NCBI RefSeq assembly: GCF_052324685.1 | Contig: NC_135212.1 | Coordinates: forward strand, 1-64,000 | Reading direction: 5' to 3' | Length of the DNA: 64,000 nt | Origin: Brachyhypopomus gauderio | Taxonomy: Eukaryota; Chordata; Actinopteri; Gymnotiformes; Hypopomidae | Shown: positions 9,591 through 41,000 of the stretch, one piece after another | Position numbering within the stretch: position 1 is the stretch's first letter | How the letters are laid out: every line of letters starts with the position of its first letter | Notes under the pieces: generated by a model | Told to the model about the DNA's origin: nothing | The model's input: only the letters and a program-made list of their open reading frames with translations | The model's database searches: none | Made by a program: the position numbers and the translations under genes

Positions 9591-9597
9591 ATATGGA

Positions 9598-12935: not shown

Positions 12936-12941
12936 TAGAGG
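11413..12941. other. Remnant intron of gene B and unclassified sequence
   Basis: Holds the conserved block 11775-11878 (twin of 7775-7878). Minus-strand donor-like sites occur near 12290 (CGG|GTAAGT) and 12490 (ATG|GTGAGT), and CACGTC/ACGTGAC motifs near 12540-12590. 12110-12830 does not match unit A well and was not identified. Confidence 0.35.
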
Positions 12942-13205
12942 TGTCAATTCCAGGTTCATAGATTAAAAGTCCTCACCGTAGCGAGGGGAGGTGTACAAGC
13001 TGAATGCGCAGCACTGTACGGCGCTACCTGTGGGGATTTAAAGTGCCCGAGTCCAATTAGTGCCAGGTGCTAATACTCGGGTGATTGGGAGTGAGGGAGT
13101 GTCCGGGAGTGAGAGGGCGTGCGCATAGTCGGAGTGGGCGTGTGTGAGTGGGAAGGAGTGTGTCTGCGCGCCCTCTGGTTGCGTCTGGGCTGACCCACCG
13201 TGACA
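12942..13205 (-). mobile_element. Possible solo LTR or LTR fragment
   Basis: 264 bp bounded by TGTCA...TGACA. Read on the minus strand it begins TGTCACGGTGGGTCAGCC, is GC-rich, and has a TATA-like CACTTTAAATCCCC followed by a basal-promoter-like stretch. No target duplication is visible, and it sits at the junction between gene B and the satellite array, so it may be a recombined remnant. It could also be another element type. Confidence 0.35.
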
Positions 13206-14594
13206 CTGATATGATCTAAAACAGCTTTTTATTATCTTCTATTCATTCTTTTTTCATCCTTTCATCCTCCCATTGGAAACCACCGATTTAACTCCATCAG
13301 ATGTATAGATAGAACAACTAAATCTGCTGTAATGATTCAACTGTAAATATGATAAATATGATGTTATATGGTCTTATTGTGACGCGGGGACAGAGGCATC
13401 AGGAGGCAGATGCTGTGAGCAAAAGGCTTTATTATCCAGTTTAAACTGAAATACTCAGGCCACCAGGCAGACCAAACACAACAGTATACTCCAGGAAATG
13501 CATGTAAGTAAAGCAGCCACAGAAGCCATATGGTTTAAAACAGCCTTTTATTTTCAACTATTCATTTTTTTTCATCCCTTCATCCCTCCATTCTCCCATT
13601 GGAAACCACTGATATAACACAGATGTATAGATAGAACAACTAAATCTGCTGTACCAATTCAATTGTATATATATGCTAAACATGTTGTCATATGGTCTTA
13701 TATGGTCTAAAACAGCTTTTTATTTTATTCTATTCTTTCTTTTTTCATCCCTCCATCTGATATAACTTAATCAAACTCCATCATTCCATAAGAATCCACT
13801 GATTTAAAAAAATCCCTTAATTTTCAAGATATAGAGATCAAACTTGGTGACCTGACTCAGTAGCTGGTCCCTAGCACTGCACTGAATATCATATTGAAGC
13901 CATTTGTCTATCCTCCCATTCTATCACTTCATTCATCCCTCCATCCTCTCATAGATAAACATTGATTTAATCAAATCCTTAATTTTCAAGATACAGTGAT
14001 CAAACTTGGTGACATGACTCACTACCTCATCCCTAGCACTACACTGAATATCATATTGATGCCATTTGTCTATCCTCCGATTATATCATTTCAATCATCC
14101 CTCCATCCTCCCATAAGAATCAATTTATGTTAAAAATCCCTTAATTTTAAAGATACAGTGATCAAACTTGGTGAAATGACTCAATAGCTGATTCCTACCA
14201 CTGCGCTGCATTTCATATCGATGCCATTTCTATCATTTCATTCATCCCTCCATCCTCCCACATGGTTCATTTGGTTTTATAACTCCAGATGTATAAATAG
14301 AACAACTAAAACTGCTGTACTCACTCAACTGTAAATATACTAAATATGGTCTTACATGGTTTTAAACAGTTTTTTCTTCTATTCATTCGTTTTCATCCCT
14401 CCATCCTCCCATAGGAAACCATTGATTTTTTAATCTGTTTCAGCTGTTAAGATAAAACAAACTATATTTGCTGTCCTTATTGAACTACTATGCTTTTCTG
14501 GGACCAACTATTATCATTTAACATACTTAACATTGCTGTTACAACAGGCTTTGTCAAGCCAACTTAAAGTTTGTTCACAAACTTTACTTTCTAG
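13206..14594 (+). mobile_element. Element E0: 5'-truncated HINE-like element
   Basis: Same satellite modules as the following elements (ATATGGTCTAAAACAGC units and 162-bp units). It ends with TTTGTCAAGCCAACTT, the hairpin AAAGTTTG-TTCA-CAAACTTT, ACTTT and CTAG (14591-14594). The 5' end is missing. An unrelated 155-bp stretch at about 13376-13530 (starting TGTGACGCGGGGACAGAGG) interrupts it and was not identified. Confidence 0.7.
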
Positions 14595-17500
14595 TTATTA
14601 TTATTATTATTATTCCGACTCGTAAAAATTTGACACGCTATTTCGTCCACAGCTTTTAAGATAGAACCACCAAACTTTGTAGGAACCTCCGCCCTATATC
14701 AGAATAGTGTGCTTGTGCTTTATAGAAAGATACACCACCTGCCTCCACCCTTTTTATGCCTCCAACCGAGCCATTTTTCCCATAGACTTGCATGGGGCCA
14801 ATTTTCAAACTGCTCTCATTTTGTCAGATTTCAAGATAAATCCACCAAACTCGATATACATGGTCCAGTGATGGAAAGAACGAAAACAACAACTTTTCAC
14901 AACTCTATCACTCTTTTATCCCTTCTTTTTCATCCCTTCTTTTTCACCCATTCACTTCCATTCATTTTTCACTGCCTTGTAGCTCGTATGTTTTACATGC
15001 TATTACCACCAAAATCACTAGATATAGTACATCTGGTCTGATATCAGTAAAGATACAACTATTTTTTACCACTCATTTTGTATTCATCCTTTTTTCATCC
15101 CTCCATTCTCCCATAGAAATACATTGATTTTATAACTACATCAGCTGTATAGATAGTACAACTATATCTGCTGTACTGACTAAGCTGTATATATGCTACA
15201 CATGGTGGTATATGGTCTTATATGGTCTAAAACAGCTTTTTATTTTCTTCTATTCATTCTTTTTTCATTCCTTCATCCCTCCATCCTCCCATTGGAAACA
15301 ACTAATATAACTCAATCAGCTGTTTAGATAGATCAACTAAACATGCTATTCCAATTCAATCTTATATATGATAAACATAGTGTTATATGGTCTAAAACAG
15401 CTTTTTATTTTCTTCTATTCATTCTTTTTTCATTCCTTCATCCCTCCATCCTCCCATTGAAAACCACTGATAAAACTGAATCAGATGTATAGATAGAACA
15501 ACTAAATCTGCTGTACTGATTCAACTGTTAATATGATAAATATGCTGTTATATGGTCTAAAACAGCTTTTTATTTTCTTCTATTCATTCTTTTTTCATTC
15601 CTTCATCCCTCCATCCTCCCATTGGAAACAACTAATATAACTCAATCAGCTGTTTAGATAGAACAACTAAAAATGCTATTCCAATTCAATTGTATATATG
15701 CTAAACATGGTGTTATATGGTCTTATATGGTCTAAAACAGTTTTTTCTTTTCTTCTATTCATTCTTTTTCATCCTTTCATCCCTCCATCCTCCCATTGGA
15801 AACCATTGATTTAATCAAATCCTTAATTTTCAAGATACAGTGATCAAACCTTGTGACATGACTCAGTCACTGATCCCTAGCACCGCACTGAATAGCATAT
15901 TGATACCATTTGTCTATCCTCCCATTCTATCATTTCATTCATCCCTCCATCCTCCCATTGGAAACCATTGATTTAATCAAATCCCTAATTTTCAAGATAC
16001 AGTGATCAAACCTTGTGACATGACTCAGTCACTGATCCCTAGCACCGCACTGAATAGCATATTGATACCATTTGTCTATCCTCCCATTCTATCATTTCAT
16101 TCATCCCTCCATCCTCCCATTGGAAACCATTGATTTATTCAAATCCCTAATTTTCAAGATACAGTGATCAAACTTGGTGACATGACTCAGTAGCTGATCC
16201 CTAGCACCGCACTGAATAGCATATTGATGCCATTTGTCTATCCTCCCATTCTATCATTTCATTCATCCCTCCATCCTCCCATTGGAAACCATTGATTTAA
16301 TCAAATCCTTAATTTTCAAGATACAGTGATCAAATTTGGTGAAATGACTCAGTAGCTGATCCCTAACACTGCCCTGAATATCATATTGATGCCATTTGTT
16401 TATCCTCCCATTCTATCATTTCATTCATCCCTCCATCCTCCCATTGGAAACCTATGATTTAATCAAATCCTTCATTTTCAAGATACAGTGATCAAATTTG
16501 GTGAAATGACTCAGTAGCTGATCCCTAACACTGCCCTGAATATCATATTGATGCCATTTGTCTATCCTCCCATTCTATCATTTCATTCATCCCTCCATCC
16601 TCCCATTGGAAACCATTGATTTATTCAAATCCTTAATTTTCAAGATACAGTGATCAAACTTGGTGACATGACTCAGTAGCTGATCCCTAACACTGCCCTG
16701 AATATCATATTGATGCCATTTGTTTATCCTCCCATTCTATCATTTCATTCATCCCTCCATCCTCCCATTGGAAACCATTGATTTATTCAATCCCTTAATT
16801 TTCAAGATACAGTGATCAAACTTGGTGAAATGACTCAGTAGCTGATCCCTAACACTGCCCTGAATATCATATTGATGCCATTTGTCTATCCTCCCATTCT
16901 ATCATTTCATTCATCCCTCCATCCTCCCATTGGAAACCATTGATTTAATCAAATCCTTAATTTTCAAGATACAGTGATCAAACTTGGTGACATGACTCAG
17001 TAGCTGATCCCTAGCACCACACTGAATATCATATTGATGCCATTTGTCAATCCTCCCATTCTATCATTTCATTCATCCCTCCATCCACCCATTGGAAACC
17101 ATTGATTTAATCAAATCCTTAATTTTCAAGCTACAGTGATCAAACTTGGTGAAATGACTCAGTAGCTGATCCCTAGCACCGCACTGAATAGCATATTGAT
17201 GCCATTTGTCTATCCTCCCATTCTATCATTTCATTCATCCCTCCATCCTCCCATTGAAAACCATTGATTTAATCAAATCCTTAATTTTCAAGATACAGTG
17301 ATCAAACCTTGTGACATGACTCAGTAGCTGATCCCTAGCACCGCACTGAATAGCATATTGATGCCATTTGTCTATCCTCCCATTCTATCATTTCATTCAT
17401 CCCTCCATCCTCCCATTGGAAACCTATGATTTAATCAAATCCTTAATTTTCAAGATACAGTGATCAAATTTGGTGAAATGACTCAGTAGCTGATCCCTAA

Positions 17501-18244
17501 CACTGCCCTGAATATCATATTGATGCCATTTGTCTATCCTCCCATTCTATCATTTCATTCATCCCTCCATCCTCCCATTGGAAACCATTGATTTATTCAA
17601 ATCCTTAATTTTCAAGATACAGTGATCAAACTTGGTGACATGACTCAGTAGCTGATCCCTAGCACTACACTGAATATCATATTGATGCAATTTGTCTATC
17701 CTCCCTTTCTATCATTTCATTCATCCCTCCATACTCTCATAGTAACCCATTGATTTACTAACTGCCTTAATTTTCAAGATACAGTGATCAAACTTGGTAA
17801 AATTACTCAATAGCTGATACCAACCATTGAGCTGCATTTCATATCGATGCCATTTGTCCATCTGCCATTTCTATCATTTCATTCATCCCTCCATCCTCCC
17901 ATATGATTCAATTGGTTTTATAACTCCACCAGATGTATGGATAGAACAACTAAAACTGCTGTACTTACTCAACTGTAAATATACTAAATATGGTCTTACA
18001 TGGTTTTAAACAGTTTTTTCTTCTATTCATTCGTTTTCATCCCTCCATCCTCCCATAAGAAACCATTGAATTTTTAACTGTTTCAGCTGGTAAGATAAAA
18101 CAACTATATTTGCTGTCCTTATTGAACTACTATGCTTTTCTGGGACCAACTATTATCATTTAACATACTTAACATTGTCTTCATGCTGTTACAACAAGCT
18201 TTGTCAAGCCAACTTAAAGTTTGTTCACAAACTTTACTTTCTAG
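14595..18244 (+). mobile_element. Element E1: HINE-like non-autonomous element with satellites
   Basis: Starts directly after the CTAG of E0 with a TTATTATT run and CCGACTCG, so the usual 5' hairpin (AAGTTGGCTT-GACA-AAGCCAACTT) is absent. The order is: a unique 5' part (14615-15060), about-170-bp units with ATATGGTCTAAAACAGC, about thirteen 162-bp units (about 15780-17860), then GCTTTGTCAAGCCAACTT, the terminal hairpin and CTAG (18241-18244). A 110-codon frame at 14709 recurs unchanged in E2, E4 and E5 because the copies are recent; it shows no protein-like features. Confidence 0.75.
15780..17860. repeat. 162-bp satellite, first block (type example)
   Basis: Exact 162-bp spacing measured at 15911, 16073, 16235 and 16397 using TGTCTATCCTCCCATTC. 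A unit contains ATCATTTCATTCATCCCTCC, GGAAACCATTGATTTAATC, TTTTCAAGATACAGTGATCA and GCTGATCCCTAGCACCGC. The same unit forms blocks in E2 (19440-20900), E3 (26080-28820), E4 (35100-37390) and E5 (39290-41500). Confidence 0.9.
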
Positions 18245-21200
18245 TTATTATTATTATTATTATTATTCCGACTCGTAAAAATTTGACACGCTATTTCGTC
18301 CACAGCTTTTAAGATAGAACCACCAAACTTTGTAGGAACCTCCGCCCTATATCAGATATAGTGTGCTTGTGCTTTATAGAAAGATACACCACCTGCCTCC
18401 ACCCTTTTTATGCCTCCAACCGAGCCATTTTTCCCATAGACTTGCATGGGGCCAATTTTCAAACTGCTCTCATTTTGTCAGATTTCAAGATAAATCCACC
18501 AAACTCGATATACATGGTCCAGTGATGGAAAGAACGAAAACAACAACTTTTCACAACTCTATCACTCTTTTATCCCTTCTTTTTCATCCCTTCTTTTTCA
18601 CCCATTCACTTCCATTCATTTTTCACTGCCTTGTAGCTCGTATGTTTTACATGCTATTACCACCAAAATCACTAGATATAGTACATCTGGTCTGATATCA
18701 GTAAAGATACAACTATTTTTTACCACTCATTTTGTATTCATCCTTTTTTCATCCCTCCATTCTCCCATAGAAATACATTGATTTTATAACTACATCAGCT
18801 GTATAGATAGTACAACTATATCTGCTGTACTGACTAAGCTGTATATATGCTACACATGGTAGTATATGGTCTTATATGGTCTAAAACAGCTTTTTATTTT
18901 CTTCTATTCATTCTTTTTTCATTCCTTCATCCCTCCATCCTCCCATTGGAAACAACTAATATAACTCAATCAGCTGTTTAGATAGATCACCTAAACATGC
19001 TATTCCAATTCAATCTTATATATGATAAACATAGTGTTATATGGTCTTATATGGTCTAAAACAGCTTTTTATTTTCTTCTATTCATTCTTTTTTCATTCC
19101 TTCATCCCTCCATCCTCCCATTGAAAACCACTGATAAAACTGAATCAGATGTATAGATAGAACAACTAAATCTGCTGTACTGATTCAACTGTTAATATGA
19201 TAAATATGCTGTTATATGGTCTAAAGCAGCTTTTTATTTTCTTCTATTCATTCTTTTTTCATTCCTTCATCCCTCCATCCTCCCATTGAAAACCACTGAT
19301 AAAACTGAATCAGATGTATAGATAGAACAACTAAATCTGCTGTACTGATTCAACTGTTAATATGATAAATATGCTGTTATATGGTCTAAAACAGCTTTTT
19401 ATTTTCTTCTATTCATTCTTTTTCATCCTTTCATCCCTCCATCCTCCCATTGGAAACCATTGATTTATTCAAATCCTTAATTTTCAAGATACAGTGATCA
19501 AACTTGGTGACATGACTCAGTAGCTGATCCCTAGCACCGCACTGAATATCATATTGATGCCATTTGTCTATCCTCCCATTCTATCATTTCATTCATCCCT
19601 CCATCCTCCCATTGGAAACCATTGATTTAATCAAATCCTTAATTTTCAAGATACAGTGATCAAACCTTGTGACATGACTCAGTAGCTGATCCCTAGCACC
19701 GCACTGAATAGCATATTGATGCCATTTGCCTATCCTCCCATTCTATCATTTCATTCATCCCTCCATCCACCCATTGGAAACCATTGATTTAACCAAATCC
19801 TTAATTTTCAAGATACAGTGATCAAATTTGGTGAAATGACTCAGTAGCTGATCCCTAACACTGCCCTGAATATCATATTGATGCCATTTGTCTATCCTCC
19901 CATTCTATCATTTCATTCATCCCTCCATCCTCCCATTGGAAACCATTGATTTATTCAAATCCTTAATTTTCAAGATACAGTGATCAAACTTGGTGACATG
20001 ACTCAGTAGCTGATCCCTAGCACCGCACTGAATATCATATTGATGTCATTTGTCTATCCTCCCATTCTATCATTTCATTCATCCCTCCATCCTCCCATTG
20101 GAAACCATTGATTTAATCAAATCCTTAATTTTCAAGATACAGTGATCAAATTTGGTGAAATGACTCAGTAGCTGATCCCTAACACTGCCCTGAATATCAT
20201 ATTGATGCCATTTGTTTATCCTCCCATTCTATCATTTCATTCATCCCTCCATCCTCCCATTGGAAACCATTGATTTATTCAATCCCTTAATTTTCAAGAT
20301 ACAGTGATCAAACTTGGTGAAATGACTCAGTAGCTGATCCCTAACACTGCCCTGAATATCATATTGATGCCATTTGTCTATCCTCCCATTCTATCATTTC
20401 ATTCATCCCTCCATCCTCCCATTGGAAACCATTGATTTAATCAAATCCTTCATTTTCAAGATACAGTGATCAAACCTTGTGACATGACTCAGTAGCTGAT
20501 CCCTAGCACCGCACTGAATATCATATTGATGCCATTTGTCTATCCTCCCATTCTATCATTTCATTCATCCCTCCATCCTCCCATTGGAAACCATTGATTT
20601 AATCAAATCCTTAATTTTCAAGATACAGTGATCAAACCTTGTGACATGACTCAGTAGCTGATCCCTAGCACCGCACTGAATATCATATTGATGCTATTTG
20701 TTTATCCTCCCATTCTATCATTTCATTCATCCCTCCATCCTCCCATTGGAAACCATGGATTTAATCAAATCCTTAATTTTCAAGATACAGTGATCAAACC
20801 TTGTGACATGACTCAGTAGCTGATCCTCAGCACCGCACTGAATATCATATTGATGACATTTGTCTATCCTCCCATTCTATCATTTCATTCATCCCTCCAT
20901 CCTCCCATAAGAATCCATTGATTTTATAACTCCATCAGATGTATAGATTTAACAACTAAATCTGATATAGTGACTCAACTGTAAATATACTAAATATGGT
21001 CTTACATGGTGTTAAAGTTTTTTCGTCTATTCATTCGTTTTCATCCCTCCATCCTCCCATAGGAAACCATTGATTTTTAAACTGTTTCAGCTGTTAAGAT
21101 AAAACAAACTATATTTGCTGTCCTTATTGAACTACTATGCTTTTCTGGGACCAACTATTATTATTTAACATACTTAACATTGTCTTCATGCTGTTACAAC

Positions 21201-21249
21201 AAGCTTTGTCAAGCCAACTTAAAGTTTGTTCACAAACTTTACTTTCTAG
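18245..21249 (+). mobile_element. Element E2: HINE-like non-autonomous element with satellites
   Basis: Nearly the same as E1 from its first base (again TTATTATT directly after CTAG), with fewer 162-bp units (about nine, 19440-20900). It ends with GCTTTGTCAAGCCAACTT, the hairpin, ACTTT and CTAG at 21246-21249. Head-to-tail with E1 and the next element, no sequence between. Confidence 0.75.
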
Positions 21250-21517
21250 TCTTCTTATTATTAAGTTGGCTTGACAAAGCCAACTTGCTGTTCTTCTTAA
21301 TCTTCTTATTATGTTGGCTTGCGAAGCAGCCAACATCTTGTTCTCCCTATTCTTATTTTTATTATTCTTCCGCATCACTTTTTGACACTTTTCACAGGTC
21401 GCAGTTTTTGAGCTAGAACCTTGAAAATTGGCAGGATCACAGATCCCATACGGGAATAGTGTGCTTGTGCTTTTGGGACATGTCGGACATACAGTGTCCG
21501 CAGGACAATGCTCCAAA

Positions 21518-22240
21518 AGCCCTATCCGGACGGGATTAGTTTCTCAGGGGGTCCTGGGGTAATTTTCTCTTTTACGGGGGGTCCTCTGTGATTTTAATCC
21601 CGTCCGGAACGAGCATGTCCGTGTTTTTCTCAGACGTCCTCAGAGAAAATTACAGGCGGAATTACCTACTGTTTTTCGCTGTACTCCGTGGTCGTCTGGT
21701 AATTTTAGTCCCGTCCGGATCCACATGTCTGAGTTTATACATGCAGACATCACCTCGCGTTTAATAAAACAGCTATATGTCCACTGCCACGCACCGTAGT
21801 TACACGTTGGGCGCGCGTTTTCACGGAGATCCACGTAAAGACAGCGGCGAGCGAAAATGGATTTACTGGATTTTTTAATGGATTTATTTTATTTTATTTA
21901 ACGGATTTATTTAGCTATTTACATTCATTAGCGATTTTTTATAATGTGTTTTCTGTATTGGTTTAACAAAATAGCTTAACTTAAACGGAGATCTTAAATG
22001 CTGAACTGAACAGTAGTAAAGTTAAAAGTTAAAAAGGAATCATCAGAGTTGGCAGTGTGACATTATTAAACATGCTATCACGTGACAAGGCGATGTCATG
22101 TGACCGAGAAAGCCAAAAACTCGCGGGTCCTCCTGTTTTTTCAATTGCTGTCCGGATGCAAGAGTTTTATCACTGAGTACAAGGGTGAAATATTTTTCAC
22201 AGACATCCCCCTGAAAAACTAATCCCGTCCGGATAGGGCT
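21518..22240. mobile_element. 723-bp MITE with 33-bp terminal inverted repeats
   Basis: Ends AGCCCTATCCGGACGGGATT and AATCCCGTCCGGATAGGGCT; the inverted repeat extends to 33 bp with one mismatch (then TCAGGGG). CCCGTCCGGA recurs internally near 21600 and 21710. Flanks read CTCCAAA and AAAGTTG, so the target duplication is a short A-rich 2-4 bp whose exact length is ambiguous. The superfamily is not assigned. It has no coding capacity. Confidence 0.75.
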
Positions 22241-22369
22241 AAAGTTGACTTTTTCCCATAGAGAATGAATGGCGGAATGTTCAGAACTGAACATTCCGTA
22301 AGGGAGATCCCCACAGGCTCACACAACACACGCACGGAACCTCTTCTCTCCCTCAGTCCCTGCAGCAGT

Positions 22370-24870
22370 ATTAACGGTATAACTGAACAACAACCCAATT
22401 TTTACTACCCCACAACCAATTACCCCTCAACAGTAATTGCCCCATAACAGTAATTGCCCCACCACAAATAAATACCCCCTCAAAAAAAAAACACAACATC
22501 TAAACAAGCTTTTACCAGGAACTACACAATAATCTTAATACCCATCAACAACAATAACCTCAACAGGTCAATAACCCCTCAATATCAACTACCCCACAGC
22601 CAATTACCCCTCAGCAGTAATTGCCCCAAACAGCTAAATCACCTCTTAACATTAACAATCCCATTAAACTAATAGCCTTCAACAATATCAAATACATCTG
22701 CATTAACTACCCCAATGGCAATTTTACTACCCCACAACTAATTGCCCCTCAACAGTAATTGCCCCACCACAGGTAAATACCCCCTCAACAAAACATTCCA
22801 CATCTAAACAAGCTTTTCACAGGAACTACACAGTAATCTTAATAGCCATCAACAACAATAACCCCAACAGGTCAATAACCCCTCAATATCAACTACCCCA
22901 CAGCCAATTACCCCTCAGCAGTAATTGCCCCAAACAGCTATATTACCTATTAACCGCAACAACACCATTAAACTAATAGCCTTCAACAATATCAAATACA
23001 TCTGCATTAACTACCCCAATGGCAATAGCCCCTCAACAGTAATTGCCCCACCACAGGTAATTGCCCCTCAACAACAAATACAACATCTAAACAAGCTTTT
23101 AACAGGAACTACACAGTAATCCTAATATCCATCAACAACAATAACCCCAATAGGTCAATAACCCCTCAATGTTAACTACCCCACAGCCAATTACCCCTCA
23201 ACAGTAATTGCCCCACCACAGGTAAATACCCCCTCAACAAAACATTCCACATCTACAAAAGCTTTTCACAGGAACTACACAGTAATCTTAATACCCATCA
23301 ACATCAATAACCCCAACAGGTCAATAACCCCTCAATATCAACTACCCCACAGCCAATTACCCCTCAGCAGTAATTGCCCCAAACAGCTATATTACCTATT
23401 AACCGCAACAACACCATTAAACTAATAGCCTTCAACAATATCAAATACATCTGCATTAATTACCCCAATGGCAATAGCCCCTCAACAGTAATTGCCCCAC
23501 CACAGGTAATTGCCCCTCAACAACAAATACAACATCTAAACAAGATTTTAACAGGAACTACACAGAAATCTTTAAAGCTATCAACAACAATAACCCCAAC
23601 AGGTCAAAAATCCCTCAATGTCAACTACCCCACAGCCAATTGCCCCTCAACTATAATTGCCCCACCACAGGTAAATACCCCCTCAACAAAACATTCCACA
23701 TCTAAACAAGCTCTTCACAGGAACCACACAGTAATCTTAATACCCATCAACAACAATAACCCCAACAGGTCAATAACCCCTCAATATCAACTACCCCACA
23801 GCCAATTACCCCTCAGCAGTAATTGCCCCAAACAGCTAAATCCCCTCTTAACATTAACAAACCCATTAAACTAATAGCCTTCAACAATATCAAATACATC
23901 TGCATTAACTACCCCAATGGCAATTTTACTACCCCACAACCAATTGCCCCTCAACAGTAATTGCCCCAAACAGCTATATTACCTATTAACCGCAACAACA
24001 CCATTAAACTAATAGCCTTCAACAATAACAAATACATCTGCATTAACTACCCCAATGGCAATAGCCCCTCAACAGTAATTGCCCCACCACAGGTAATTGC
24101 CCCTCAACAATAAATACAACATCTAAACAAGCTTTTAACAGCAACTACACAGTAATCTTAATAGCCATCAACAACAATAACCCTAACAGGTCAATAACCC
24201 CTCAATGTCAACTACCCCACAGCCAATTACCCCTCAGCAGTAATTGCCCCAAACAGCTATATTACCTCTTAACTGCAACAACCCCATTAAACTAATAGCC
24301 TTCAACAATATCAAATACATCTGCATTAACTACCCCAATGGCAATTTTACTACCCCACAACTAATTGCCCCTCAACAGTAATTGCCCCACCACAGGAAAA
24401 TACCCCTTCAACAAAACATTCCACATCTAAACAAGGTTTTAACAGGAACTACACAGTAATCTTAATAGCCATCAACAACAATAACCCCAACAGGTCAATA
24501 ACCCCTCAATATCAACTACCCCACAGCCAATTACCCCTCAGCAGTAATTGCCCCAAACAGCTATATTACCTATTAACCGCAACAACACCATTAAACTAAT
24601 AGCCTTCAACAATAACAAATACATCTGCATTAACTACCCCAATGGCAATAGCCCCTCAACAGTAATTGCCCCACCACAGGTAAATACCCCCTCAACAAAA
24701 CATTCCACATCTAAACAAGCTTTTCACAGGAACTACACAGTAATCTTAATACCCATCAACAACAATAGCCCCAACAGGTCAATAACCCTTCAATATCAAC
24801 TACCCCACAGCCAATTACCCCTCAGCAGTAATTACCCCAAACACCTAAACTACCCCTTAACCGCAACATA
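22370..24870. repeat. C/A-rich satellite array inside element X
   Basis: Irregular tandem repeat built from phrases such as CCCCACAGCCAATTACCCC, CAGTAATTGCCCC, CAACAATAACCCCAACAGG and AACAAGCTTTT, with larger blocks recurring at roughly 450 or 590 bp (for example near 22925, 23374, 23966 and 24548). The plus strand is extremely poor in G. Plus-strand frames up to 166 codons exist only because of this composition. Confidence 0.85.
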
Positions 24871-24986
24871 ATCTAACAATGCTAACATTAAAACAACCTT
24901 TAACATTAGGTCATCAACATTCAAAACAGCGTTTCAGCTGCTTTGCAAGCCAACATAAAGTTTGTTCACAAACTTTGCCTATCTAG

Positions 24987-27900: not shown

Positions 27901-29489
27901 ATACAGTGATCAAACTTGGTGAAATTACTCAATAGCTGATGCCTGTCACTGTACTGAATATCATATTGATGCCATTTGTCTATCCTTCTCTTCTATCATT
28001 TCATTCATCCCTCCATCCTCCCATTGGAAACCATTGATTTAATCAAATCCTTCATTTTCAAGATACAGTGATCAAACTTGGTGACATGACTCAGTAGCTG
28101 ATCCCTAGCACCACACTGAATATCATATTGATGCCATTTGTCAATCCTCCCATTCTATCATTTCATTCATCCCTCCATCCACCCATTGGAAACCATTGAT
28201 TTAATCAAATCCTTAATTTTCAAGATACAGTGATCAAACTTGGTGACATGACTCAGTAGCTGATCCCTAACACTGCCCTGAATATCATATTGATGCCATT
28301 TGTTTATCCTCCCATTCTATCATTTCATTCATCCCTCCATCCTCCCATAAGAATCCATTGATTTAATCTCTTATTTTTAAAGATACAGTGATCAAACCTT
28401 GTGACATGACTCAGTAGCTGATCCCTAGCACCGCACTGAATATCATATTGATGCCATTTGTCTATCCTCCCATTCTATCATTTCATTCATCCCTCCATCC
28501 TCTCATTGGAAACCATTGATTTAATCAAATCCTTAATTTTCAAGATACAGTGATCAAACCTTGTGACATGACTCAGTGGCTGATCCCTAGCACTGCACTG
28601 AATACCATATTGATGCCATTTGTCTATCCTCCCATTCTATCATTTCATTCATCCCTCCATCCTCCCATAAGAATCCATTGATTTAATCAATCCCTTAATT
28701 TTTAAGATACAGTGATCAAACTTGGTGAAATGGCTCAGTAGCTGGTCCCTAGCACTGCACTGAATATCATATTGATGCCATTTGTCTATCCTCCCATTCT
28801 ATCATTTCATTCATCCTTCCATCCTCCCATAGGATTTTATTGATTTTATAACTCCATCAGATGTAAAGATTTAACAACTAAATCTGATATACTGTCTCAA
28901 ATGTAAATATACTAAATATGGTCTTACATGATGTTAAACAGTTTTGTCTTCTATTCATTTGTTTTCATCCCTCCATCCTCCCATTGGAAACCATTGATTT
29001 AATCAATCCCTTAATTTTCAAGATGCAGTGATCAAACTTGGTGAAATGACTCAGTAGCTGATCCCTAGCCCTGCACTGAATAACATATTGATGCCATTTG
29101 ACTATCCTCCCATTTCTATCATTTCATTCACCCCTCCATCCTCCCATATGATTCAATTGGTTTTATAACTCCACCAGATGTATAGATGGAACAACTTAAA
29201 CTGCTGTACTCACTCAACTGTAAATATACTAAATATGGTCTTACATGGTTTTAAACAGTTTTTTCTTCTATTCATTCGTTTTCATCCCTCCATCCTCCCA
29301 TAGGAAACCATTGATTTTTTAACTGTTTCAGCTGTTAAGATAAAACAACTATATTTGCTGTCCTTATCGAACTACTATGCTTTTCTGGGACCAACTATTA
29401 TCATTTAACATACTTAACATTGTCTTCATGCTGTTACAACAAGCTTTGTCAAGCCAACTTAAAGTTTGTTCACAAACTTTACTTTCTAG
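24987..29489 (+). mobile_element. Element E3: complete HINE-like element
   Basis: Has both ends. The 5' hairpin AAGTTGGCTT-GACA-AAGCCAACTT starts at 24992. The inverse of its first 18 bases, GCTTTGTCAAGCCAACTT, is at 29443-29460, followed by hairpin AAAGTTTG-TTCA-CAAACTTT, ACTTT and CTAG (29486-29489). The 5' part is diverged from E1, E2, E4 and E5. About seventeen 162-bp units lie between 26080 and 28820. Its last 1.3 kb is essentially identical to the end of E4, 8561 bp away. Confidence 0.8.
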
Positions 29490-30179
29490 TTAAGTTGGCT
29501 TGACAAAGCCAACTTGCTGTTCTTCTTAACACTAGGAACCCGACGGCCGCGAAAATTTTCGCAAGGCTTAGTAAGGTCCATGTAGCCCACTCCCCTGCTG
29601 TGAAGAGATTAACGCCCATTGTCTTGGTAATGCGGTGGAAGCGTCTCACCCCCAGCTCATACGCCTGCCAAAGCACAAGCGGCTCACCTCCAAGCTCATA
29701 CAAGGCACCAAACGTGATACTTCACGAAAAACTTGGTTACAAACAAGCAGACTGTATATGTTACCGATCCTACAACAAACAGCGGAAATTTTGTAGACTC
29801 GTGTTTCAAAAGATACAATTCAAGCGCACGTAGAGAGTTTCTCAAATGAGTCCCGTCAAACAATAAAAATAAATAAAATTGTCTGAACCTCTTTGTATAT
29901 TGTTTGAAGCTCTTTGTATATTTACTACACTATATAATATTTGTTACACTTTCTGTTTCCGCGTTTGAATTCGCGTTTGAAAAGCTAAGAAATTATATGG
30001 CGCAATTATATATATGGCTGATAAATGTTGTGATCTAAACAGCAGACTGGAAAAGGAGAGGAAAAGACAGGAAGAACAAATTCATGTGCTGTAAAACAAC
30101 TTTATTTTGATCAAACATGGATGTCTATTCCGGGTTTCTTGAAGTGGAATGTCAAGAAAGTTGAGGGTGTCTTGAAGTT

Positions 30180-30680
30180 GAGGGTGTACTCGCCAGATGC
30201 ACTTGCCGCATGCAACACACGCGTTGATGCTGTGGAGAACAATTCAAGGTACACCTTACATTTTGAATAAAATCTTTCAGAAGACAAAAATACGTAACAT
30301 ATGTGGTGTTACGTATGTAGGCCTACTTATCAACGTACCTTCATGTAGTTGTAGCCAACAGTTGCTACACAGCCAGGGTGTACTCGCTGCATGCAACGGG
30401 CCACCGGCGTGTTCCTGCGTGCACTGTGTATGCACGCACCTTCATGATGTCTGTCAACGGCGCACTGCAAAGAACAAAGTACATGTTATATTTTGAACGA
30501 ATTTATTCATGTGTACCAGCCAGGGACCCTCTTTCTTACATTTGCGGCAGGTTCATCGTTCATCGCTGCCAAGGTCAACGGGCCACCGGCGTGTTCCTGC
30601 GCGCACTGTGTATGCACGCACAGAAGTACATGTTATATTTAGAACGAATTCATTCATGTATAAATTGATTCTGTGAAAAT
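30180..30680 (-). pseudogene. Partial duplicate copies of the transposase 3' exon
   Basis: GGGCCACCGGCGTGTTCCTG followed by the CGCACTGTGTATGCACGC sequence occurs at about 31321 (inside the transposase exon) and again near 30398 and 30577. TTGCCGCATGCA and GCTGTGGAG phrases near 30200 match the Cys-rich end of the same exon. These are broken fragments without a continuous frame, probably from local duplication within the element. Confidence 0.7.
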
Positions 30681-30992
30681 GTCACAGGCATGGGTCATAA
30701 CAGAACGGGAATCCAATTCCAGCAACCATGAGAAAAATAACCAGCAACCACGACGAGAAATAAACAGAGGACTAACACGGAAACAGACATGAAATGGCAG
30801 GAGATGCGGGGCAGACCGTGACACCGGGTTTCATGATGTGCGACTGTGGAACAGAAAGAGAAGAGATTTTTGGTTATGTTCAAATAATAGTGTGTGTGTA
30901 TATATATGTGTGTGTGATTGGTTGTCTGTATATATATATAATATATTTATATATATATATATATATATATAAATATACTTATCGACGTACCT

Positions 30993-32430
30993 TCATGTAG
31001 TTTTAGGTACACAGTTGCCACACAGCCAGGGACACTCTGCCCTACACTTGCGACAGGTGTACTTGCCGCATGCAGCGCACGGGGTTATGCTGTGGTTCCG
31101 GTTGCAGTTTGTCTGCACCTGACACGTAGTCTTCTTTCCAGGAGCAGGCGAAGGACGTGGCGTTCTCTTCAACTCCTTTTCCTGTAGGAAACGAAGACGG
31201 AGTTCCTCAGCAAGAGTACACATAAAAACTCTCCTACTCTCTGTGGACCCCGTACATGCCGTGTACAAAACATGCGCGTTCATCGCTGCCAGGTCAAGTA
31301 TGTTATAAAACACTGCAACGGGCCACCGGCGTGTTCCTGCGCGCACTGTGTATGCACGCGCCTTCTGGTCCATGATGTCAACGGCGCACTGCAAAGAACA
31401 AATACAAAGAAGTACATGTTATATTTTGAATAAATTCATTCATGTATGATAAATTGATTTATCAATGCCAACACATGCATACCTTCGTCCGGTTGTAGTC
31501 CGTCACAGTGTTTGGCTTCTTTTTGCGGTCGTCTGCAATCTCCACGTGCGTGTGCATAGTGCTCAGAACGCAAACTGTTTTGTTGGGCTTGGAGGCATAC
31601 ACCGTCAGAAGCGCATCATCGGATCTGTACACCTCCGTTGACAACTTCTCACGTCCCTTGGCGTTTTTGGCTTCCAAAGGAACTTCTCGGCGAATCTTGT
31701 TCATTGTCCCAAGCAGAGTCGTGTTGCATTCCAGCAGCTTCTTAGCCAGGGAAAGAGATGTGAAAAAATTGTCTGTGGCTACAGTTCTGCCCTTGCCCAG
31801 GTATGGCTTCATAAGCTTCATCACCACATTCTCGGACACTCTTTCCCCCTTGGGACGATCGGGGTCCTTTCCAAGGTATGGAATGGCGTTGCACATGTAC
31901 TTTGTGTTCAACTCAGAAGCAACCCAAAACTTTATTCCAAACTTGTCCGGCTTTGAGGCAATGTACTGGGTGAATGGACAGCGAACCTTGGTCGGAAACA
32001 GCTGCTCGTCGACTGTCAGTTCCTTGCCTGGGGTATAGCACAAAATGCAGTTGTTCACAAATCGCTGCCAGATGTCCGAAATCGCAGCAAATCTGTCGCT
32101 CTTTGCACGCTCCGCACGGGTGTCCTTATTATCAAAGCGCAAGTACCGCATGATTTCTTGGTAGCGGTCCCGTGCCATTGTCTCCTGGATCGAAGGCACA
32201 GCGAACATTGCCGACCAACAGTCCGACATCGCTCCAACTGGACAGAGGACTGCTCGTAGAAATAGGATTGCTACGAATGCCATAAACTCGCTGACCGACA
32301 AACTCCAGCTGCTGTCTGTTCTGCGGGTCAAAAAACAGGAGGGTCCTTCTCCCGCATCGGACTCACAGCAGTCCTCGTTGGTCAGCAAAGCCGCAACTTC
32401 TTGACCGGTGAACGTCCTCTGTCTTGCCAT
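30993..32430 (-). CDS. piggyBac transposase, two exons, shortened N-terminal part
   Basis: Exon 1 is 32430-31483 (donor AAG|GTATGC) and exon 2 is 31388-30993 (acceptor TTGTTCTTTGCAG), phase 0; the protein is 447 aa. The ATG at 32430 has an excellent context (ACACCATGG); the frame upstream begins only at a GTG. The DDE-type domain keeps the three expected acidic sites: Asp141 (TVDEQLF), Asp220 (VATDNFFTS) and Asp320/Asp323 (AVDIMDQ), followed by TRRWPVAVFYN. A Cys-rich zinc-binding tail (about 400-444, CAACGKYTCRKC) ends the protein. Family members are usually nearer 590 aa: the acidic N-terminus and part of the N-terminal domain are missing between about residues 30 and 45, so activity is doubtful. 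It would excise and insert DNA at TTAA. Confidence 0.85.
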
Positions 32431-32667
32431 GGTGTTTTGCGTCGTCTCCACACAGGATAGTAGTGAAAATGTAAGTCGCCTGCCTTTGGGTTTCAGCTTT
32501 TATCATGACTCTGAAGAACACACCCACAACAGCGCATACTAATTATACTTTATTATAATAGGTGGCGCTTCACACATAACGCCGAAACCGAAACCGGGCT
32601 AATCCCCTGCATACACGGGAACAATAAAAGTTGTTCCCCGTGATAATGGTTCACGGCAATCCGTGAA

Positions 32668-33280
32668 TATCAGTCAAACACAAGCATAAACACTGCAAAA
32701 AATATTATATTACTATGCTGTATGAGTAAAAATAAATAAATGACGCTAAGTTATTTACACAAACGAAATATCTTATTTACACAAACGAAATATCAGTCAA
32801 ACACAAGCATAAACACTGCAAAAAATATTATATTACTATGCTGTATGAGTAAAAATAAATAAATGACGCTAAGTTATTTACATGAACGAAATATCTTATT
32901 TACACGAACGAAATATCAGTCAAACACAAGAAAACACAAAAAATATTATATTACTATGCTGTATGAGTAAAAATAAATAAATGACGCTAAGTTATTTACA
33001 CAAACGAAATATCTTATTTACACGAACGAAATATCAGTCAAACACAAGCATAAACACTGCAAAAAATATTATATTACTATGCTGTATGAGTAAAAATAAA
33101 TAAATGACGCTAAGTTATTTACATGAACGAAATATCTTATTTACACAAACGAAATATCAGTCAAACACAAGCATAAACACTGCAAAAAAATATTATGTTA
33201 CTATGCTGTATGAGTAAAAATAAGTAAATGTACAAATAAATATTACTTTACTATACCTTTATTACTTTGTTGCTGCTATT
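32668..33280. repeat. 123-bp tandem repeat, 5 units
   Basis: TATCAGTCAAACACAAG recurs at 32668, 32791, 32914, 33032 and 33155 (periods 123, 123, 118, 123). Units include GCTGTATGAGTAAAAATAAA and ACGAAATATCTTATTTACAC. It lies between the transposase promoter side and the right end of the piggyBac element. Confidence 0.9.
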
Positions 33281-33640
33281 GAAGTGCATACACAAGAAAA
33301 TCTGGGACGCTTGCTTCATACATAACGCCAATACCACGCTAATGATAATGTGTTTCACGGGAACAATATGAACCCGTGATAATGGTTGGTTCAGCCATGT
33401 AAATGTGTGGCGCTATTGAAGTGCATACACAAGAAAATCTGGGACGTTTGCTTCATACATAACGCCAATACCACGCTAATGATAATGTGTTTCACGGGAA
33501 CAATATGGACCCGTGATAATGGTTGGTTCAGCCATGTAAATGTGTGGCGCTATTGAAGTGCATGCACAAGAAAATCTGAGACGCTTGCTTCATACATAAC
33601 GCCAATACCACGCTAATGATAATGGTTCACCGCTCTAAAT
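33270..33640. repeat. About 132-bp tandem repeat, about 3 units
   Basis: Units contain GAAGTGCATACACAAGAAAA, CATACATAACGCCAATACCA and CGTGATAATGGTTGGTTCAG. Related phrases (CACACATAACGCCGAAAC) also appear at 32570 and 33670, so this is subterminal piggyBac sequence that has been amplified. Confidence 0.85.
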
Positions 33641-36600
33641 AATACTTATGTCAATATGTAGCGCTTCACACATAACGCCGAAACAGGGCTAAACTTTATT
33701 TATTTATTTTAGACTACAAACTAGACCTGGTGCACACAGACTGCACACAGACTAGACCTGGTGCACCACAGAGCTCCTGCCACAGAGCTCCTGCCTGTCT
33801 TTCTGCTCCTGTCTTGCTCTGAAATTAACATATGTATGGTCCTGCTAATTGGGCAGGAGAAGGAGGGGTGATGTCCTCAGAACCTTGAAATCTCAGGAGT
33901 TCCAGTGTTAATCTTCTTATTATTATTATTATTATTCCGACTCGTAAAAATTTGACACGCTATTTCGTCCACAGCTTTTAAGATAGAACCACCAAACTTT
34001 GTAGGAACCTCCGCCCTATATCAGAATAGTTTGCTTGTGCTTTATAGAAAGATACACCACCTGCCTCCACCCTTTTTATGCCTCCAACCGAGCCATTTTT
34101 CCCATAGACTTGCATGGGGCCAATTTTCAAACTGCTCTCATTTTGTCAGATTTCAAGATAAATCCACCAAACTCGATATACATGGTCCAGTGATGGAAAG
34201 AACGAAAACAACAACTTTTCACAACTCTATCACTCTTTTATCCCTTCTTTTTCATCCCTTCTTTTTCACCCATTCACTTCCATTCATTTTTCACTGCCTT
34301 GTAGCTCGTATGTTTTACATGCTATTACCACCAAAATCACTAGATATAGTACATCTGGTCTGATATCAGTAAAGATACAACTATTTTTTACCACTCATTT
34401 TGTATTCATCCTTTTTTCATCCCTCCATTCTCCCATAGAAATACATTGATTTTATAACTACATCAGCTGTATAGATAGTACAACTATATCTGCTGTACTG
34501 ACTAAGCTGTATATATGCTACACATGGTGGTATATGGTCTTATATGGTCTAAAACAGCTTTTTATTTTCTTCTATTCATTCTTTTTTCATTCCTTCATCC
34601 CTCCATCCTCCCATTGGAAACAACTAATATAACTCAATCAGCTGTTTAGATAGATCAACTAAACATGCTATTCCAATTCAATCTTATATATGATAAACAT
34701 AGTGTTATATGGTCTTATATGGTCTAAAACAGCTTTTTATTTTCTTCTATTCATTCTTTTTTCATTCCTTCATCCCTCCATCCTCCCATTGAAAACCACT
34801 GATAAAACTGAATCAGATGTATAGATAGAACAACTAAATCTGCTGTACTGATTCAACTGTTAATATGATAAATATGCTGTTATATGGTCTAAAACAGCTT
34901 TTTATTTTCTTCTATTCATTCTTTTTTCATTCCTTCATCCCTCCATCCTCCCATTGGAAACAACTAATATAACTCAATCAGCTGTTTAGATAGAACAACT
35001 AAAAATGCTATTCCAATTCAATTGTATATATGCTAAACATGGTGTTATATGGTCTTATATGGTCTAAAACAGTTTTTTCTTTTCTTCTATTCATTCTTTT
35101 TCATCCTTTCATCCCTCCATCCTCCCATTGGAAACCATTGATTTAATCAAATCCTTAATTTTCAAGATACAGTGATCAAACCTTGTGACATGACTCAGTA
35201 GCTGATCCCTAGCACCGCACTGAATAGCATATTGATGCCATTTGTCTATCCTCCCATTCTATCACTTCATTCATCCCTCCATCCTCTCATAGACAACCAT
35301 TGATTTAATCAAATCCTTAATTTTCAAGATACAGTGATCAAACCTTGTGACATGACTCAGTCACTGATCCCTAGCACCGCACTGAATAGCATATTGATAC
35401 CATTTGTCTATCCTCCCATTCTATCATTTCATTCATCCCTCCATCCTCCCATTGGAAACCATTGATTTAATCAAATCCCTAATTTTCAAGATACAGTGAT
35501 CAAACTTGGTGACATGACTCAGTAGCTGATCCCTAGCACCGCACTGAATAGCATATTGATGCCATTTGTCTATCCTCCCATTCTATCATTTCATTCATCC
35601 CTCCATCCTCCCATTGGAAACCATTGATTTAATCAAATCCTTAATTTTCAAAATACAGTGACTAACCTTGTGACATGACACAGTAGCTGATCCCTAGCAC
35701 CGCACTGAATAGCATATTGATGCCATTTGTCTATCCTCCCATTCTATCATTTCATTCATCCCTCCATCCTCCCATTGGAAACCTATGATTTAATCAAATC
35801 CTTAATTTTCAAGATACAGTGATCAAATTTGGTGAAATGACTCAGTAGCTGATCCCTAACACTGCCCTGAATATCATATTGATGCCATTTGTTTATCCTC
35901 CCATTCTATCATTTCATTCATCCCTCCATCCTCCCATTGGAAACCATTGATTTATTCAATCCCTTAATTTTCAAGATACAGTGATCAAACTTGGTGAAAT
36001 GACTCAGTAGCTGATCCCTAACACTGCCCTGAATATCATATTGATGCCATTTGTCTATCCTCCCATTCTATCATTTCATTCATCCCTCCATCCTCCCATT
36101 GGAAACCATTGATTTAATCAAATCCTTCATTTTCAAGATACAGTGATCAAACCTTGTGACATGACTCAGTAGCTGATCCCTAGCACCGCACTGAATATCA
36201 TATTGATGCCATTTGTCTATCCTCCCATTCTATCATTTCATTCATCCCTCCATCCTCCCATTGGAAACCATTGATTTAATCAAATCCTTAATTTTCAAGA
36301 TACAGTGATCAAACCTTGTGACATAACTCAGTAGCTGATCCCTAGCACCGCACTGAATATCATATTGATGCCATTTGTTTATCCTCCCGTTCTATCATTT
36401 CATTCATCCCTCCATCCTCCCATTGGAAACCATGGATTTAATCAAATCCTTAATTTTCAAGATACAGTGATCAAACCTTGTGACATGACTCAGTAGCTGA
36501 TCCCTAGCACCGCACTGAATAGCATATTGATGCCATTTGTCTATCCTCCCATTCTATCATTTCATTCATCCCTTCATTCTCCCATTGGAAACCATTGATT

Positions 36601-38050
36601 TAATCAAATCCTTAATTTTTAAGATACAGTGATCAAACCTTGTGACATGACTCAGTAGCTGATCCCTAGCACCGCACTGAATATCATATTGATGCCATTT
36701 GTCTATCCTCCCATTCTATCATTTCATTCATCCCTCCATCCACCCATTGGAAACCATTGATTTAATCAAATCCTTAATTTTCAAGATACAGTGATCAAAC
36801 TTGGTGACATGACTCAGTAGCTGATCCCTAACACTGCCCTGAATATCATATTGATGCCATTTGTTTATCCTCCCATTCTATCATTTCATTCATCCCTCCA
36901 TCCTCCCATAAGAATCCATTGATTTAATCTCTTATTTTTAAAGATACAGTGATCAAACCTTGTGACATGACTCAGTAGCTGATCCCTAGCACCGCACTGA
37001 ATATCATATTGATGCCATTTGTCTATCCTCCCATTCTATCATTTCATTCATCCCTCCATCCTCTCATTGGAAACCATTGATTTAATCAAATCCTTAATTT
37101 TCAAGATACAGTGATCAAACCTTGTGACATGACTCAGTGGCTGATCCCTAGCACTGCACTGAATACCATATTGATGCCATTTGTCTATCCTCCCATTCTA
37201 TCATTTCATTCATCCCTCCATCCTCCCATAAGAATCCATTGATTTAATCAATCCCTTAATTTTTAAGATACAGTGATCAAACTTGGTGAAATGGCTCAGT
37301 AGCTGGTCCCTAGCACTGCACTGAATATCATATTGATGCCATTTGTCTATCCTCCCATTCTATCATTTCATTCATCCTTCCATCCTCCCATAGGATTTTA
37401 TTGATTTTATAACTCCATCAGATGTAAAGATTTAACAACTAAATCTGATATACTGTCTCAAATGTAAATATACTAAATATGGTCTTACATGATGTTAAAC
37501 AGTTTTGTCTTCTATTCATTTGTTTTCATCCCTCCATCCTCCCATTGGAAACCATTGATTTAATCAATCCCTTAATTTTCAAGATGCAGTGATCAAACTT
37601 GGTGAAATGACTCAGTAGCTGATCCCTAGCCCTGCACTGAATAACATATTGATGCCATTTGACTATCCTCCCATTTCTATCATTTCATTCACCCCTCCAT
37701 CCTCCCATATGATTCAATTGGTTTTATAACTCCACCAGATGTATAGATGGAACAACTTAAACTGCTGTACTCACTCAACTGTAAATATACTAAATATGGT
37801 CTTACATGGTTTTAAACAGTTTTTTCTTCTATTCATTCGTTTTCATCCCTCCATCCTCCCATAGGAAACCATTGATTTTTTAACTGTTTCAGCTGTTAAG
37901 ATAAAACAACTATATTTGCTGTCCTTATCGAACTACTATGCTTTTCTGGGACCAACTATTATCATTTAACATACTTAACATTGTCTTCATGCTGTTACAA
38001 CAAGCTTTGTCAAGCCAACTTAAAGTTTGTTCACAAACTTTACTTTCTAG

Positions 38051-41000
38051 TTAAGTTGGCTTGACAAAGCCAACTTGCTGTTCTTCTTAATCTTCTTATT
38101 ATTATTATTATTATTCCGACTCGTAAAAATTTGACACGCTATTTCGTCCACAGCTTTTAAGATAGAACCACCAAACTTTGTAGGAACCTCCGCCCTATAG
38201 ATCAGAATAGTGTGCTTGTGCTTTATAGAAAGATACACCACCTGCCTCCACCCTTTTTATGCCTCCAACCGAGCCATTTTTCCCATAGACTTGCATGGGG
38301 CCAATTTTCAAACTGCTCTCATTTTGTCAGATTTCAAGATAAATCCACCAAACTCGATATACATGGTCCAGTGATGGAAAGAACGAAAACAACAACTTTT
38401 CACAACTCTATCACTCTTTTATCCCTTCTTTTTCATCCCTTCTTTTTCACCCATTCACTTCCATTCATTTTTCACTGCCTTGTAGCTCGTATGTTTTACA
38501 TGCTATTACCACCAAAATCACTAGATATAGTACATCTGGTCTGATATCAGTAAAGATACAACTATTTTTTACCACTCATTTTGTATTCATCCTTTTTTCA
38601 TCCCTCCATTCTCCCATAGAAATACATTGATTTTATAACTACATCAGCTGTATAGATAGTACAACTATATCTGCTGTACTGACTAAGCTGTATATATGCT
38701 ACACATGGTGGTATATGGTCTTATATGGTCTAAAACAGCTTTTTATTTTCTTCTATTCATTCTTTTTTCATTCCTTCATCCCTCCATCCTCCCATTGGAA
38801 ACAACTAATATAACTCAATCAGCTGTTTAGATAGATCAACTAAACATGCTATTCCAATTCAATCTTATATATGATAAACATAGTGTTATATGGTCTTATA
38901 TGGTCTAAAACAGCTTTTTATTTTCTTCTATTCATTCTTTTTTCATTCCTTCATCCCTCCATCCTCCCATTGAAAACCACTGATAAAACTGAATCAGATG
39001 TATAGATAGAACAACTAAATCTGCTGTACTGATTCAACTGTTAATATGATAAATATGCTGTTATATGGTCTAAAACAGCTTTTTATTTTCTTCTATTCAT
39101 TCTTTTTTCATTCCTTCATCCCCCCATCCTCCCATTGGAAACAACTAATATAACTCAATCAGCTGTTTAGATAGAACAACTAAAAATGCTATTCCAATTC
39201 AATTGTATATATGCTAAACATGGTGTTATATGGTCTTATATGGTCTAAAACAGTTTTTTCTTTTCTTCTATTCATTCTTTTTCATCCTTTCATCCCTCCA
39301 TCCTCCCATTGGAAACCATTGATTTAATCAAATCCTTAATTTTCAAGATACAGTGATCAAACCTTGTGACATGACTCAGTAGCTGATCCCTAGCACCGCA
39401 CTGAATAGCATATTGATGCCATTTGTCTATCCTCCCATTCTATCACTTCATTCATCCCTCCATCCTCTCATAGACAACCATTGATTTAATCAAATCCTTA
39501 ATTTTCAAGATACAGTGATCAAACCTTGTGACATGACTCAGTCACTGATCCCTAGCACCGCACTGAATAGCATATTGATACCATTTGTCTATCCTCCCAT
39601 TCTATCATTTCATTCATCCCTCCATCCTCCCATTGGAAACCATTGATTTAATCAAATCCCTAATTTTCAAGATACAGTGATCAAACTTGGTGACATGACT
39701 CAGTAGCTGATCCCTAGCACCGCACTGAATAGCATATTGATGCCATTTGTCTATCCTCCCATTCTATCATTTCATTCATCCCTCCATCCTCCCATTGGAA
39801 ACCATTGATTTAATCAAATCCTTAATTTTCAAAATACAGTGACTAACCTTGTGACATGACACAGTAGCTGATCCCTAGCACCGCACTGAATAGCATATTG
39901 ATGCCATTTGTCTATCCTCCCATTCTATCATTTCATTCATCCCTCCATCCTCCCATTGGAAACCTATGATTTAATCAAATCCTTAATTTTCAAGATACAG
40001 TGATCAAATTTGGTGAAATGACTCAGTAGCTGATCCCTAACACTGCCCTGAATATCATATTGATGCCATTTGTTTATCCTCCCATTCTATCATTTCATTC
40101 ATCCCTCCATCCTCCCATTGGAAACCATTGATTTATTCAATCCCTTAATTTTCAAGATACAGTGATCAAACTTGGTGAAATGACTCAGTAGCTGATCCCT
40201 AACACTGCCCTGAATATCATATTGATGCCATTTGTCTATCCTCCCATTCTATCATTTCATTCATCCCTCCATCCTCCCATTGGAAACCATTGATTTAATC
40301 AAATCCTTCATTTTCAAGATACAGTGATCAAACCTTGTGACATGACTCAGTAGCTGATCCCTAGCACCGCACTGAATATCATATTGATGCCATTTGTCTA
40401 TCCTCCCATTCTATCATTTCATTCATCCCTCCATCCTCCCATTGGAAACCATTGATTTAATCAAATCCTTAATTTTCAAGATACAGTGATCAAACCTTGT
40501 GACATAACTCAGTAGCTGATCCCTAGCACCGCACTGAATATCATATTGATGCCATTTGTTTATCCTCCCATTCTATCATTTCATTCATCCCTCCATCCTC
40601 CCATTGGAAACCATGGATTTAATCAAATCCTTAATTTTCAAGATACAGTGATCAAACCTTGTGACATGACTCAGTAGCTGATCCCTAGCACCGCACTGAA
40701 TATCATATTGATGCCATTTGTCTATCCTCCCATTCTATCATTTCATTCATCCCTCCATCCTCCCATTGGAAACCATTGATTTAATCAAATCCTTAATTTT
40801 CAAGATACAGTGATCAAACCTTGTGACATAACTCAGTAGCTGATCCCTAGCACCGCACTGAATATCATATTGATGCCATTTGTCTATCCTCCCATTCTAT
40901 CATTTCATTCATCCCTCCATCCACCCATTGGAAACCATTGATTTAATCAAATCCTTAATTTTCAAGATACAGTGATCAAACTTGGTGACATGACTCAGTA

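Follow-up and report, generated by a model that had tools for sequence, protein, structure and literature searches.

The window analysed here, the first 64 kb of contig C2 (49.9 Mb) in an assembly of 796 Mb and 840 contigs, is a head-to-tail chain of rolling-circle transposons, the Helentrons. We extended the region to 224 contiguous kb of C2 starting with the window and marked 3′ ends, 5′ palindromes, T-rich strips and the starts of element bodies. The names alpha, beta, gamma, delta, B and C denote subfamilies or families and were coined in this analysis; C1, C3, C4, C6, C8, C11, C14, C16, C17 and C18 are other contigs of the same assembly. The window is made up of the following parts:

1–14594, + strand: 3′ part of a large Helentron copy, its left part beyond the contig start; repeats C2:51859–66489
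14548–14594, + strand: 3′ end of family A (subterminal repeat, 20-bp hairpin, ACTTTCTAG)
14595–18244, + strand: leftover strip (TTA)6TT and alpha body, together the downstream part of an older copy that was split; 3′ end at 18198–18244
18245–21249, + strand: leftover strip (TTA)7TT and alpha body; 3′ end at 21203–21249; partner 5′ fragment not seen
21250–21260, + strand: strip piece TCTTCTTATTA, between two insertions
21261–21308, + strand: orphan alpha 5′ fragment (palindrome and 22 strip bases); the body resumes at C2:66490, beyond the window
21309–24986, + strand: complete family B copy, 5′ TTATGTTGG..., 3′ hairpin-GCCTATCTAG
24987–24989, + strand: single TTA unit of the split alpha strip, between two insertions
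24990–29489, + strand: complete family A copy, subfamily beta
29490–38050, + strand: complete family A copy, subfamily alpha, its strip interrupted by a piggyBac
29530–33907, − strand: nested piggyBac-type transposon flanked left and right by TTAA (29526–29529, 33908–33911); borders set by eye
38051–64000, + strand: first 26 kb of an alpha-ended Helentron copy of 28.4 kb with the Rep/helicase/endonuclease ORF; the copy has its end at C2:66489
38077–38115, + strand: intact T-rich strip of the 28.4-kb copy, CTTCTTAATCTTC then (TTA)n, a repeated target
45238–52317, − strand: ORF of 2359 codons with Helitron_like_N (Rep), PIF1 helicase and exo/endonuclease domains

Contig C2 opens with a 51.9-kb repeated unit, in which window positions 1–14594 match C2:51859–66489 at 99.7% (1–10688) and 100% identity (10688–14594), and junction 14594 is the counterpart of junction 66489, one repeat earlier. 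The first 1706 bases from 14595 match the resumed alpha body at C2:66490 with 99.4% identity; the partner of the residual body at 14595 would be situated past the contig start. Of the first 100 of 137 A-type 3′ ends listed for the genome, 91 fall in C2:1–780000; along the contig, these ends lie on the + strand up to 428 kb, on the − strand up to about 729 kb and then on the + strand again. The transposase ORF of the nested piggyBac (31462–32499) matches Pfam DDE_Tnp_1_7 (E 1.2e-55), and an ORF with the same C-terminal residues is found inside an alpha body at C2:70135–71142.

Elements start precisely with TTAAGTTGG or TTATGTTGG and close precisely with a hairpin and CTAG: copies of family A run from TTAAGTTGGCTTGACAAAGCCAACTT to ACTTTCTAG, those of family B from TTATGTTGGCTTGCGAAGCAGCCAACAT to GCCTATCTAG. 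The 5′ palindrome and the repeat that precedes the 3′ hairpin are inverses of each other (AAGTTGGCTTGACAAAGC versus GCTTTGTCAAGCCAACTT), giving the palindromic subterminal inverted repeats typical of Helentrons. Other Helentron traits present are a 3′ stem-loop (a 20-bp hairpin ahead of the end) and a T-rich TT target without target duplication (TT on the 3′ side at 17/17 host sites). The 3′ end also has the form seen in canonical Helitrons (Helitron1), with CTAG and a hairpin 9–10 nt before the end; the canonical 5′-TC is absent, copies beginning with TT. Just behind the 5′ palindrome and before the body sits a T-rich (TTA-rich) strip, and TTATTATT is present in all 22 distinct intact strips, taken as the interval from palindrome to body. 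The non-coding bodies (window 15776–17902 and others) contain internal tandem repeats of about 162 bp, visible as BLAST offsets.

The ORF at 45238–52317 joins Rep (HUH), PIF1-type helicase and endonuclease in one protein, a further Helentron trait. Pfam searches found PF14214, PF05970 and PF03372 in this ORF and in that of a gamma copy (C2:157238–164281; domains read over 2254 codons), and the window ORF contains the motifs HIH, YILSY and GTAGTGKS and matches Helraiser (PDB 7lcc). The gamma copy (C2:151870–168806, 16.9 kb) has an uninterrupted ORF of 2348 codons, 91% identical to that of the window, while in a third ORF-bearing copy (C2:80803–103376) the reading frame is broken. The 224 kb contain three ORF-bearing copies, and each has its Rep/helicase ORF on the strand opposite to the 5′-to-3′ sense of the element (window 45238–52317; C2:86347–93505; C2:157238–164281).

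An earlier note on this DNA had described six junctions at which a hairpin and CTAG are followed by T, and we found all six (CTAG ending at 14594, 18244, 21249, 24986, 29489 and 38050), together with the four kinds of following sequence that it had quoted; its identification of rolling-circle elements whose 3′ end falls exactly at hairpin-CTAG|T holds. A scan of both strands of the 224 kb, allowing up to four substitutions in the hairpin, yielded 40 such ends, every one on the + strand and followed by T (TT 37, TA 2, TC 1). What follows is in each of the 40 cases a strip or the 5′ end of another copy: a leftover strip and body at 19, a 5′ end directly at 12, and a strip piece and then a 5′ end at nine. 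Genome-wide searches, restricted to exact patterns and hence excluding ends with an altered hairpin, found 137 A-type ACTTTCTAG ends with T next and 143 B-type (GCCTAT-type) ends; T came next in 278 of 280 and another base in two, with T and then a non-T base after 24 of the 280. The pattern lies far beyond chance, because a reversed control gave no matches in each of four genome-wide searches.

The target site was derived from family B, starting from 20 3′ ends chosen by eye as isolated, of which two (L037, L038) turned out to abut other copies. TT followed directly in 20/20. Sixteen of these ends pair with an exact 5′ palindrome, 15 directly and the one on C8 in its nest; the copy at C3:28.3 Mb has a worn 5′ start in the same place, and for those at C3:5.11 Mb and C17:2.98 Mb no 5′ start was found within 4.4 kb of the 3′ end. 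No sampled B copy was seen to begin inside its strip at a host site (17/20 starts located; C14:13.52 Mb left out). The 15 directly paired copies, minus the two abutting ones, plus four nest flanks (C17, C8, C11, C16) gave 17 host sites, all of family B, with the consensus TT(A/G)^TT....(T/C)T: T at −3 in 17, T at −2 in 14 and A/G at −1 in 15 on the left, and TT at +1/+2 in 17, T/C at +7 in 16 and T at +8 in 16 on the right. One T on either side of an insertion is assignable neither to copy nor to target. The earlier suggestion of insertion without a resolvable target duplication agrees with these 17 sites and with restored strips that show no gain or loss. At C1:20656208–20658517 (L054 / L029), the flanks of a single B copy share about 17 bases (TATCTCTATTATCTTTA), either a pre-existing repeat or a longer duplication.

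The (TTA)n of the strip repeats this same target, TT(A/G)^TT....(T/C)T, on one strand only. The strips, which cover 1,448 bp of the 224 kb, contain 146 of 182 forward TTATTNNNNTT sites, as against 0/76 reverse sites; for a looser consensus the figures are 171/354 and 0/319. The shared orientation of all 40 copies fits, because the target recurs along the strip in a single direction. Just 22/40 array junctions have the full right-hand target TT....(T/C)T, compared with a background of 2%, and this shortfall counts against nesting.

The earlier note spoke of variable 5′ ends. The variability is real for the sequence after CTAG, but the element does not begin there: this sequence is what is left of the T-rich 5′ strip of an older copy, split by a nested copy. 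Such split copies have a 5′ fragment upstream, at least one complete copy in the middle, and the strip remainder and body downstream. Pairing halves last in, first out and comparing the result with known intact strips, we found that the rejoined strip is identical, base for base, to a known intact strip in seven of 11 closed nests; the remaining four are off by 2, 3, 3 and 6 nt, which counts against nesting. Mispaired halves gave a known intact strip in 0/54 cases, in a control that skipped pairs sharing a piece. Outside the set of 11 stand C2:215598 (open), C16 (unbalanced) and C18, C1 and C6 (lacking a resolved right side).

Several nests sit at isolated loci. On C17, a unique flank is followed by a B 5′ fragment, a complete B copy, the strip remainder with B body and a second unique flank; the nest on C8, a beta copy within a B copy, has the same layout, again between unique flanks. 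A double nest on C11 holds two stacked B fragments, one complete copy and two remainders: joining the two outer halves, or the two inner ones, gives in each case the same 39-nt strip, which is intact elsewhere too, the rejoined copies are 99.0–99.6% alike, and crossed pairing fails. At C2:136590, a B copy splits a gamma strip at CTTAA^TATT, and the joined strip equals intact gamma strips (compared by eye); a TT duplication is excluded here, because the right flank starts with TA and the copy with TT. Within the window, the alpha fragment at 21261–21308 is followed by the B copy, one TTA unit, the beta copy, the alpha copy with its piggyBac and the 28.4-kb ORF-bearing copy. Interrupted after 21308, the outer alpha copy resumes at C2:66490, and its rejoined strip is identical to those of the intact alpha copies at C2:173633 and 193188; the closure at 66490 was picked after viewing the sequence, as the first residual body downstream.

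Orphan 5′ fragments are stacked at array starts. In the first 100 of the 130 B 5′ ends listed, neighbours 50–107 bp apart occur at 16 loci, in the same orientation at 15 loci (20 neighbour pairs) and in opposite orientation at one. That single opposite pair among the first 100 of 130, C18:121083 and 121156, stands back to back, 73 bp apart. Some material lacks a counterpart, and this counts against nesting: of the 19 residual bodies found in the 224 kb, 15 have no visible partner 5′ fragment; for one of five orphans, the C-type fragment at C2:215598, the other half was not found up to 235,000; and, counted by exact ends, C4 has three B starts to four B ends and C16 four starts to three ends. 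Missing partners, open fragment and imbalance alike would be explained if short tandem 5′ fragments had been lost, or by exchange or composite transposition.

On this sequence evidence, the chain very probably consists of Helentron copies lying inside one another; later copies would have inserted, in the same orientation, into the TTA strips of older ones, most likely because the strip repeats the preferred target of the element.

Ready-made nests might instead have moved as blocks by composite transposition, the first 3′ end being bypassed, so that arrays grew mostly by block copying rather than by fresh nesting. End bypass and composite Helitrons are described in the accessible parts of two studies (PMC5148889; PMC3288121), and the stretches in which a complete alpha copy is followed by alpha bodies without 5′ fragments (173633–188310, 193188–208189) resemble such blocks. 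However, the loss of short tandem 5′ fragments would give an identical appearance, and no block stands here between two unique flanks; we regard this account as improbable.

Lower still in our estimation is rolling-circle read-through or repeated initiation, favoured by the earlier note, in which a single transposition event would deposit several units that share their 3′ end but begin at shifting 5′ positions. It would fit the fixed 3′ ends, the head-to-tail order and the 12 of 40 joints that run exactly from 3′ end to 5′ end, as expected of a circle. Yet different subfamilies are joined at 27 of 39 classifiable junctions, including 10 of the 12 direct joints, which counts against read-through because a concatemer would repeat one copy. 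Neither does it predict stacked 5′ fragments with matching halves, and among the sampled B copies 16/20 3′ ends pair with an exact 5′ palindrome and one with a worn one, none being seen to start in the strip at a host site (17 starts located). Subfamily mixing, stacked 5′ fragments and restored strips lead us to reject read-through or wandering initiation as the origin of the variable start, and the exact last-in-first-out rejoining in 7/11 nests speaks against the earlier proposal.

No better placed, and highly unlikely, is unequal crossing-over with segmental duplication acting alone on one original junction. The 51.9-kb repeat, at 99.7–100% identity, speaks for it, as do runs of alpha bodies and a repeated order of units in 115168–130082 and 173633–208189 (compared as token order, unaligned), but it explains neither the complete, different copies inside strips at unique isolated loci (C8, C11, C17) nor exact strip restoration. 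The earlier note dismissed unequal exchange too broadly: the 51.9-kb repeated unit at the window start implies that duplication or exchange multiplied units later. Unless they are assembly artefacts, this repeat and the recurring unit orders show that duplication is also at work, and we retain exchange and duplication solely in that amplifying role.

That the chain is a TTAA-duplicating TIR element of piggyBac or Kolobok type, a reading that the earlier note had named as the alternative, can be discarded with near certainty: the family A start TTAAG resembles TTAA and a piggyBac does lie within the chain, but TTAA stands on both sides at 0/17 host sites, full-size copies encode Rep/helicase, and the sole TTAA duplication (29526–29529, 33908–33911) flanks the separate nested piggyBac.

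Under nesting into self-carried strips, the encoded Rep/helicase would produce a single-stranded or circular intermediate, which would insert at TTR^TT. Each insertion would split one strip and add a new one, and arrays would therefore grow from within. Where CTAG|TTAAG ends meet directly, a copy probably inserted at the very 5′ boundary of the resident one, and exchange, segmental duplication and possibly composite transposition would have multiplied units afterwards.

Much of this has precedent, as far as the accessible parts of the cited papers go. The elements resemble Helentrons, HINEs and DINE-1 (PMC4067079) in combining Rep/helicase with endonuclease, palindromic subterminal repeats, a 3′ stem-loop and a T-rich TT target without target duplication. 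Clusters are mentioned in that account and tandem Helitron arrays ascribed to bypassed termination, whereas a TTA strip carrying the element's own target is not described in the portions available, and the 3′ end here is CTAG. For FoHeli in Fusarium (PMC5148889), the available text infers self-insertion near the 5′ end from duplicated 5′ termini (several 5′ termini with one 3′ terminus), names insertion into the 5′ end or rolling-circle replication for a three-copy tandem, and reports a joined-end circular intermediate of FoHeli1; unlike here, the cases there are few, with no own target strip, base-exact halves or long arrays in that text. Maize Helitrons with multiple termini were likewise explained by nesting, with a preference for insertion in or near other Helitrons (PMC3288121), but those are canonical Helitrons whose internal 3′ ends are mostly worn rather than intact, and the preference is given without a cause in the part available. 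Residues 81–285, in the N-terminal part of the window ORF, match 8ADD (E 7.6e-71), the structure of the deubiquitinase domain of DrT1, one of the VTD-bearing zebrafish Helentrons DrT1 and DrT2; that work (PMC9741609), in its accessible parts, treats the protease and not insertion or arrays. The match to a zebrafish Helentron domain suggests that the DNA comes from a fish. MuTAnT (PMC4486113) is also a DNA transposon that targets a microsatellite, but is described in the text available as Mutator-like and as targeting host TA microsatellites rather than a self-carried strip. Neither a self-carried target strip nor base-exact nested arrays were found in the literature searched, whose scope took in few subscription papers. 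Nested Helitrons are thus already known; the self-carried target strip, base-exact nesting and the scale of the arrays appear to be new.

Head-to-tail clustering and landing in or beside other copies have so far, in the literature consulted, been ascribed to bypassed termination or left unexplained. Here, the order of insertion can be read from the bases, the attracting sequence is visible inside the element, and the shared orientation of the copies is a consequence of it. How Helitron-derived arrays and satellites arose thereby becomes testable in any long-read assembly. We tentatively advance a broader reading, which we hold to be possible rather than probable: Helentrons would carry a one-way array of their own targets, a self-landing strip, and so build self-nesting, satellite-like arrays of tens to hundreds of kb; arrays elsewhere ascribed to failed termination would largely be the same kind of nest; and the strip may have been selected because it directs new copies towards existing ones rather than into genes.
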